Below are positions 39,337-40,807 of a DNA stretch of 64,000 nt, piece by piece. This DNA is from Lineolata rhizophorae. Its lineage: Eukaryota > Ascomycota > Dothideomycetes > Lineolatales > Lineolataceae. Under the pieces are notes generated by a model, which searched no databases, was not told the origin of the DNA, and worked only from the letters and a program-made list of their open reading frames with translations. The stretch lies in the NCBI GenBank assembly GCA_010093515.1, contig MU001671.1:928808-992807 (forward strand), written 5' to 3'. Numbering within the stretch: position 1 is the stretch's first letter; each line of letters begins with the position of its first letter. The position numbers were made by a program, and so were the translations under genes.

Positions 39337-40807
39337 ATGAACCGGTATCCGCGCAGCGGCCGATCCAAGGCCACCGCCTCGACCCTGTGCCAGAAGTGCC
39401 TGAAACGAGATACGTACCCTCCCCTCCCTCTTTCCCTGGACGTCACTAACCTACTCCGTACGGCACTACAGCTACGAATGCAAAGCCTCCGTGCAGGAGC
39501 GCCCCTACGCGGCGCGCCCCTCGCGCACCCAGCAGCTCTTTAACCCAGCGCTCGCCCCTAAGCTGTCCTCGGACGCGCCGCCCGGCGATGACGACGATCT
39601 GCTACGAAAGAAAGGCGTCGCGGACGCGCAGCTTAAGAAGGCGGCCGACGAGAGGCGGCGCGACCACGACGGTGACGTCAAGCTCGACTCTGACTCCGAC
39701 CTTGGCGAGGGCTATGGTCGCGACGACGAACACGCCAAGCGACATCGCCGTCGAGCCGATTCCATAGCCTCCACCCGATCCTCCTCGTCCTCGTCGTCCA
39801 TCGAAACAATCTCAACCAACCGCTCCGCATCGCACTCGCGTTCCCGCAACCACGATACTAACGATACCTACATACACTCGCAACAACAAGACGCACTTCC
39901 AACTCGCCCATCCCACCACGCCCAACATCACCACACTTCCTCCCGCAAACGCCGCCGTCGCTCCTCCTTCTCTTCGTCCTCAACGTCCTCTTCCCGTTCC
40001 CCGGCCCGCAATACCCGCCGCCGTCGCGCCTCCCTCAGCCCCGTCCAGCGCGGCCGCCGCCCCACGCGCTCCGTCTCCGCCGTCTCGTCCGCGCGCCGCA
40101 CGGAACAGCACGGCGCCGGAGGAGCGCCCGCGAGACGCGAGACGCGCAGCCGGAGCAGGAGCGGCATACGCGGACGGCGCGCGCCGGCAAGGCGGCGCCG
40201 GAGCAGCGTCATCAGCAGCACGTCCGCGTCCATGTTGTCCGACGAGAAAGGCCGCGGAGCGGGCAGGGATGGGAGGAGCGCGAGGAACGGCACGGCGACG
40301 AGCCGCGGCGATGGTTTCGCTGGCAAAGGCAGCGCATATCGTAGCTCGGGCGCGCGGAGGCTGTCGCCGTCTCCCGACCCTGCATCCCCGGACCCTCCGC
40401 CGGCCCGGAGCTACGATCGCGATCGCGACCGCAGCCGCAGCCGTAGACGCAGTCGCAGCCGTAGCCGGAGCAGGAGCCCGAGCTTTGCGCGCCGCGGGCC
40501 GCGCTGGCAGTCGAGAAGTCGGAGTCGGAGCTGGACGCCGTATGCGCATCGGGAGGGACGGAGAGGTGGTGGTAGTAATTGGAGAGGCGGGAGGAGGGGC
40601 GGGGGAGCAAGGGAGGAGAGGAATGGATTTGGCTTTGGGAGAGGGAGGAGGGACGACTATAGGAGAGGGGATGGCGGCAGTGGGGGGGCGAGGGAAGCGG
40701 AGAATGGCGGTATGGGCCAGAGAGAGAGGAGTTTAAGTCCGTATAGTAAGAGGGTGGCTATGACAAGGGCAATGAGGGGCGGCGCTGGTGGTGGTGGGGG
40801 TTGGTAG
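39337..40807 (+). CDS. ZCCHC10-like zinc-knuckle protein with RS-rich tail, AT-AC intron proposed
   Basis: Nuclear zinc-knuckle protein similar at its N-terminus to ZCCHC10, with an SR-protein-like tail that suggests splicing or RNA work. With the proposed AT-AC intron (39410-39461, 52 nt) exons 39337-39409 and 39462-40807 give 472 aa. The join reads STLCQKCLKRGHYSYECKA, a perfect C-x2-C-x4-H-x4-C knuckle of the family, followed by QERPYAARPSRTQQLFNP as in relatives. The GT-AG alternative (39414-39471) is also in frame but gives CLKRDTYEC and loses the His. After about residue 90 come Ser runs, Arg-rich blocks and a long RS-dipeptide stretch (DRDRDRSRSRRRSRSRSRSR), then Gly/Arg-rich repeats. 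The family and knuckle are firm. The splice choice is inference. Confidence 0.85.

Follow-up and report, generated by a model that had tools for sequence, protein, structure and literature searches.

The window, a stretch of 64,000 nucleotides on contig MU001671.1 of the mangrove-dwelling Dothideomycete Lineolata rhizophorae, whose genome assembly comprises 31 Mb in 48 contigs, carries on its forward strand a gene for a ZCCHC10-like protein. Left unspliced, the reading frame that opens with the ATG at 39337 stops after 68 amino acids; joining 39337-39409 to 39462-40807 gives a frame of 472 amino acids that runs from this ATG to a stop at 40807. Exon 1 (39337..39409) encodes MNRYPRSGRSKATASTLCQKCLKR and supplies the first base of a glycine codon, which is interrupted in phase 1 (CGA G|GG CAC) by a predicted 52-nt AT-AC intron (39410..39461) placed by protein conservation, and exon 2 (39462..40807) provides the remainder of the knuckle, the RPSRTQQL block, an RS-rich region, the tail RERSLSPYSKR and the stop. 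The predicted protein thus begins with an intact knuckle, CQKCLKRGHYSYEC, followed by the RPSRTQQL block, the RS-rich middle and the tail. Its PF13917 (zf-CCHC_3) domain scores 66.3 bits with the AT-AC excision versus 53.9 bits when the site is read as GT-AG (cut-off 27). Both the C-x2-C-x4-H-x4-C knuckle and the flanking RPSRTQQL block that mark the ZCCHC10 / zf-CCHC_3 family are present in our alignment (A1), and a search of the PDB returned no close ZCCHC10 structure.

The first-pass annotation had described a 52-nt segment at 39410-39461 that starts with ATACGT, holds CACTAAC (39444-39450) and ends in CCGTAC, and both the sequence and the coordinates proved exact. Its excision does bring GHYSYEC into place, rebuilding the exact knuckle together with the 472-residue frame. 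Some form of C-x2-C-x4-H-x4-C is rebuilt by fourteen different 52-nt excisions; that of 39410-39461 is the only one to place Gly before the His, and also the only one with GT-AG, GC-AG or AT-AC ends. When frame-keeping pairs of a GT, GC or AT donor (39350-39429) with an AG or AC acceptor were enumerated at lengths of 40-119 nt, the intact knuckle was obtained from 39410-39461 alone. The protein fixes AT as the first and AC as the last dinucleotide of the segment, with no sliding possible.

The donor, ATACGT (39410..39415), had been likened to GTACGT with A at position +1, a description that holds, as 9 of 12 positions pair with the 5' end of U1 in the AT register versus 4 of 12 in the GT register four bases downstream; the duplex estimate at this donor is -3.7 kcal/mol. 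CACTAAC (39444..39450), whose likely branch A is 39449, we take to be the branch site from its fit to the branch consensus, and the acceptor CCGTAC (39456..39461) has its last base 11 nt after CTAAC, a spacing equal to that of the U1-C intron described below. Across 94,961 positions (the window and loci L001-L010), a search for AT and AC ends 52 nt apart, combined with a U2-like donor and CTAAC in place, gave two occurrences, both of them the 39410-39461 site, which L001 repeats. Scanning the window for its local splice grammar (GTRNGT..CTAAC..YAG) yielded 4 candidates on one strand and 6 on the other, versus 1-5 in six one-strand shuffles, a difference too weak to use.

To place the knuckle among its relatives, the best 120 of 495 homologue matches were compared. 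C-x2-C-x4-H-x4-C is found in 119 of these 120 proteins, with Gly preceding His in each; the exception is P0001, the top match and the public L. rhizophorae model of the same gene. The Gly-His pair therefore stands at the place predicted by the AT-AC excision in 119/119 of the other listed homologues, in agreement with the proposal that the rebuilt knuckle has the form of its relatives, and P0001 is the only listed protein without Gly-His, none of the listed relatives showing a conserved CLKRDTYEC. The tail motif RERSLSPYSKR, present in 113 of the 120, is also absent from P0001.

With 39414-39471 and 39796-39890 taken out, the window agrees letter for letter with P0001. The first of these, a GT-AG intron on the forward strand (39414..39471; GTACCC...CTACAG), leaves a protein of 470 amino acids that reads CLKRDTYEC and has lost the zinc-binding His, as had been stated at the outset; this reading is in frame but weak. 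The second (39796..39890; starting GTCCAT and ending AACAAG) deletes ETISTN, a conserved block, and puts the tail into another frame, and for these reasons we judge it spurious. Because its second intron destroys conserved sequence, P0001 is weak counter-evidence on its GT-AG junction, and by the test of conservation the model is wrong and needs correcting. That the ordinary GT-AG intron 39414-39471 is nevertheless the one used, with the species making a knuckle without the His, seems to us highly improbable: P0001 uses this junction, the frame is kept and the shared branch site lies at a plausible distance, but the excision breaks a Gly-His pair kept in every other listed homologue, the GTACCC donor lacks a G at +5 and has the poorer U1 pairing, the source model looks like a machine guess whose second intron removes conserved blocks, and the U1-C gene points to AT-AC splicing elsewhere in the genome. 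It is also conceivable, if rather unlikely, that the gene uses both junctions, the AT-AC one yielding the working protein and the GT-AG one, still in frame, a minor isoform that is zinc-dead and has two residues fewer, a reading that overlaps with our preferred one. The GT-AG excision is 6 nt longer than the AT-AC one and each keeps the frame, and a yeast protointron was cloned with GT-AG and AT-AC junctions according to the available part of PMC6726248; against this stands the weak GT donor.

We infer from protein conservation, together with a second gene of the same genome, that 39410-39461 is excised as an AT-AC intron, a reading that is well supported and in our judgement very probably correct. 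Counting against it, several relatives seem to be intronless in the knuckle, as their ORFs appear to read through (P0042, P0043, P0062 and others), and P0004, with 299 amino acids on a contig of 934 bases, apparently reads through the knuckle as well. Given these apparent read-through ORFs, homology of the window intron to a GT-AG ancestor is at most tentative, and the 120 listed of 495 homologues contained no read-in models at the position of the window-gene intron. Viral contigs scanned with A1 and P0124 for DNA of relatives gave no matches, and the one match from a scan of genome contigs was L114, a eukaryote-like contaminant in which CQKCLKKGHWTYEC is uninterrupted. This eukaryote-like ZCCHC10 gene (L114:875-1006) lies on a contig filed under a Verrucomicrobia MAG, where its presence probably reflects contamination.

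U2-type AT-AC introns are an established kind, named also in reference 53 of PMC6726248 (Wu and Krainer 1997). In donor and branch site, ATACGT, CACTAAC and the extent of U1 pairing at the window intron fit this type; the U1-C donor pairs at 7 of 12 positions but with a poor duplex energy. The genome holds seven U1-like copies (L004-L010), two of them on the reverse strand, which all start with ATACTTACCT and all score below the family cut-off; the 12 nt used for pairing are identical in 6 of the 7, L004 differing in the last two. U6 was found over its cut-off, and U6atac and U12 were not found in the genome by a search that covered these two of the minor families and had no positive control for them. 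A second U6-like sequence (L003:1501-1605) shares ACAGAGA but has a different 5' part, and scores 43.6 bits versus the U6 cut-off of 44.

U12-type introns commonly have AT-AC ends (PMC7072748, in the part available), and an intron of this type would be removed by the minor spliceosome. The U12 consensus, however, has ATATCC as its donor and CCTTAAC as its branch site (both as given in the available text of PMC3033335), in contrast to ATACGT and CACTAAC here; U12 and U6atac were not found by the search without positive control, and the accessible portion of PMC10639083 reports no convincing minor introns in Ascomycota. We rejected the U12-type reading on its donor and branch site, and give it almost no credence. 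The explanation that we favour over the others, and with considerable confidence, is an AT-AC intron of the U2 type that the ordinary spliceosome would remove. We propose that U1 would pair with the donor in the register that places cleavage before ATACGT, that U2 would select CACTAAC, and that, with A as the first base, the second step would take the AC at 39460-39461 and not the AG 10 nt downstream; in the ZCCHC10-like protein encoded by the resulting message, the CCHC zinc knuckle would be intact. U1-C of this genome seems to follow the same rule, and its intron is apparently GT-AG in relatives.

Five pattern scans of the genome for further AT-AC introns yielded 137 distinct donors, counted from rows. 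In all five, the genome gave fewer rows than the reversed control (28/48, 26/43, 21/29, 48/70 and 28/41, the first pair being ATACGT..RCTAAC..YAC), which counts against our explanation and indicates that such introns are not common in this genome. We read 103 loci (L011-L113) of the 136 donors other than that of the window, leaving out the other 33: 24 of 24 for ATACGT..RCTAAC, 22 of 23 for ATAAGT, 20 of 20 for ATATGT, 19 of 45 for ATACGT..CTGAC and, for ATACGT..YCTAAC, 18 newly fetched of 26 in addition to L034. Only L017, which encodes U1-C, held up among the 103. By eye, canonical splice sites explain L030 (YIP4-like) and L029 (RPL19), and a canonical donor lies beside the AT in L090 and L054; L062 (PAF-AH) is explained by a canonical join, and L080 looked like plain coding sequence. 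Nothing was recognised in the remaining joins among the loci read, ten joins having been covered by a Pfam scan. Introns whose flanking exons are very short, or for which shorter flanks were fetched, would escape the frame filters. More AT-AC introns may exist in this genome, since the scans sampled donor and branch variants and 103 of the 136 other loci were read.

U1-C was found through the ATACGT..RCTAAC..YAC scan, as one of 24 loci other than the window. The gene (L017:1991-2257) has a putative AT-AC first intron at 2001-2067 (67 nt) and a canonical second intron at 2176-2257 (GTACGC...GCAG). Its sequence runs ATGCCTAAAT, then the 67 nt ATACGT...CTAACTCTCCTAGCAC, then TCTTCTGCGATTAC, joining to MPKFFCDYCDVYLTH. 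The start of U1-C (MPK|FFCDYCD) needs the excision of ATACGT...CTAAC...TAGCAC, and in the range tried MPKFFCDYC was obtained only by excising 2001-2067. All 120 listed U1-C homologues (of 435 found) have MPKFF, MPKYF or MPKYY before CDYC, and solved U1-C chains in the PDB align from residue 1. The zf-U1 domain scores 79.2 bits with the AT-AC excision 2001-2067, versus 70.9 for AT-AG 2001-2064, 66.4 for GT-AG 2019-2064 and 67.3 for a start inside the intron. Eleven other in-frame GT/GC/AT by AG/AC excisions, which give other starts and include GT-AG 2005-2044, GT-AG 2019-2064 and AT-AG 2001-2064, count against the AT-AC reading; of these, 2001-2064 and 2019-2064 are the two that were scored with zf-U1. 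In the AT-AC donor 7 of 12 positions are paired with U1, as many as in the donor of the canonical second intron of the gene; the duplex estimate for the AT-AC donor, +0.5 kcal/mol, is weak by that measure and also counts against. The AT-AC reading passes over a TAG 3 nt upstream and takes CAC.

The second case also bears on whether the window site reflects an error of sequencing or assembly, or is a GT-AG intron copy that has decayed. Apart from its terminal bases the intron looks ordinary, as such an account would have it, but two errors of exactly compensating kind would be needed here and two again in U1-C, the reading frame is intact over 472 amino acids and there is one match in the genome; we find this account barely credible. 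Three further readings were rejected: an antisense GT-AG (CT-AC) artefact, as the reverse strand would read GT...AT; a stwintron, the intron being in our judgement too short; and IRE1/HAC1-type cleavage, for which the motif is CNG|CNG and no CNG|CNG was seen by eye at the ends.

A second U1-C search listed 120 of 347 matches and, with the first, gave 189 U1-C-like proteins. The U1-C of Lineolata itself was sought among these 189 (from two listings of 120 each) and none was found by sequence, the best agreeing at 52 of 61 residues. The 189 comprise 124 intact proteins, 32 with a late start at MSVRKAHN or a close variant of it, 19 in which DYC is preceded by other sequence, 4 without FF and 10 read-in models. 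In 10/10 of the read-in models the residue just before FCDYC is Val, made by G|TC (G|TC TTC), which implies that the relatives' intron ends in G, at the same site and phase as the L017 AT-AC intron (T|TC of the first Phe). Four of the 10 run MPKC[EK], corresponding to T|GTGAG or T|GTAAG (nucleotides deduced from residues, with GC donors possible). The U1-C intron of other Pezizomycotina appears to share the position and phase of the L017 intron but to end in G, with a GT-like donor in four models, that of L017 being AT-AC. On these protein models, a GT-AG intron seems to interrupt U1-C of relatives, Gaeumannomyces tritici (P0255) included, at exactly the place and in the phase of the L017 intron, and the comparison with GT-AG introns in relatives, made here through U1-C and not the window gene, had the outcome predicted. 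De novo gain as a general account had first been suggested by the read-through ORFs of relatives; for U1-C, the read-in models favour conversion, and we infer that paired end changes from GT-AG to AT-AC are the most likely origin of the U1-C state, while gain may still apply to the window gene. The broader idea that this lineage turned GT-AG introns into AT-AC more than once, through paired changes at the two terminal bases and in genes connected with RNA processing, we regard as doubtful.

U2-type (class II) AT-AC introns are named in the available part of PMC7072748, which puts AT-AC at 0.019% of annotated fungal introns and states that non-canonical sites are often taken for artefacts; RNA-seq of human-pathogenic fungi gave 0.09-5.19% AT-AC in the available text of PMC6176087, a range to be treated with caution. 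The two introns described here would share with U2-type AT-AC introns their AT and AC ends and the use of the major spliceosome, and differ in lying in a Dothideomycete whose genome gave no minor snRNA in the search for U12 and U6atac and in being very short, at 52 and 67 nt. As far as the accessible portion of PMC6726248 goes, AT-AC comes second to GT-AG in efficiency among the end pairs of a yeast intron, the SUT635 protointron uses both GT-AG and AT-AC, RPL30 has an alternative AT-AC junction, and no standard yeast intron normally uses AT-AC. In yeast the ordinary spliceosome acts and AT-AC competes with a nearby GT-AG, as would be the case here, but there AT-AC serves in a noncoding RNA or as an alternative junction to GT-AG, whereas here the coding frame appears to depend on AT-AC in two genes. 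By title or abstract, the literature searched holds no AT-AC intron in a fungal U1-C or ZCCHC10 gene. With two cases base-fixed by conserved residues and no minor snRNA found, the genome would offer clean material on how the major spliceosome chooses AC over AG. Both genes also illustrate how gene finders misread such introns, the public model of the window gene being wrong by conservation. If the doubtful idea of repeated conversion is true, U1-C, which helps recognise 5' splice sites, would depend on an AT-AC intron and could feed back on its own splicing, and its intron would offer a natural test of whether first and last base pair, as a suitably spaced TAG is passed for a CAC 3 nt on.

Other fungi show further variation at the start of U1-C. 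P0245, P0252, P0258 and P0272 read MPKCDYC, with FF missing, and these models, together with others implying intron ends at T|TC and T|GC, suggest that in some fungi a 6-nt microexon, TCTTCT, lies between two introns. Fourteen models (P0246, P0270, P0301 and 11 more) have other sequence ending in Gly before DYCDVY, which points to a second intron site (FF T|GC), and P0301 (MPKFFCE...) could be a GC-AG case.
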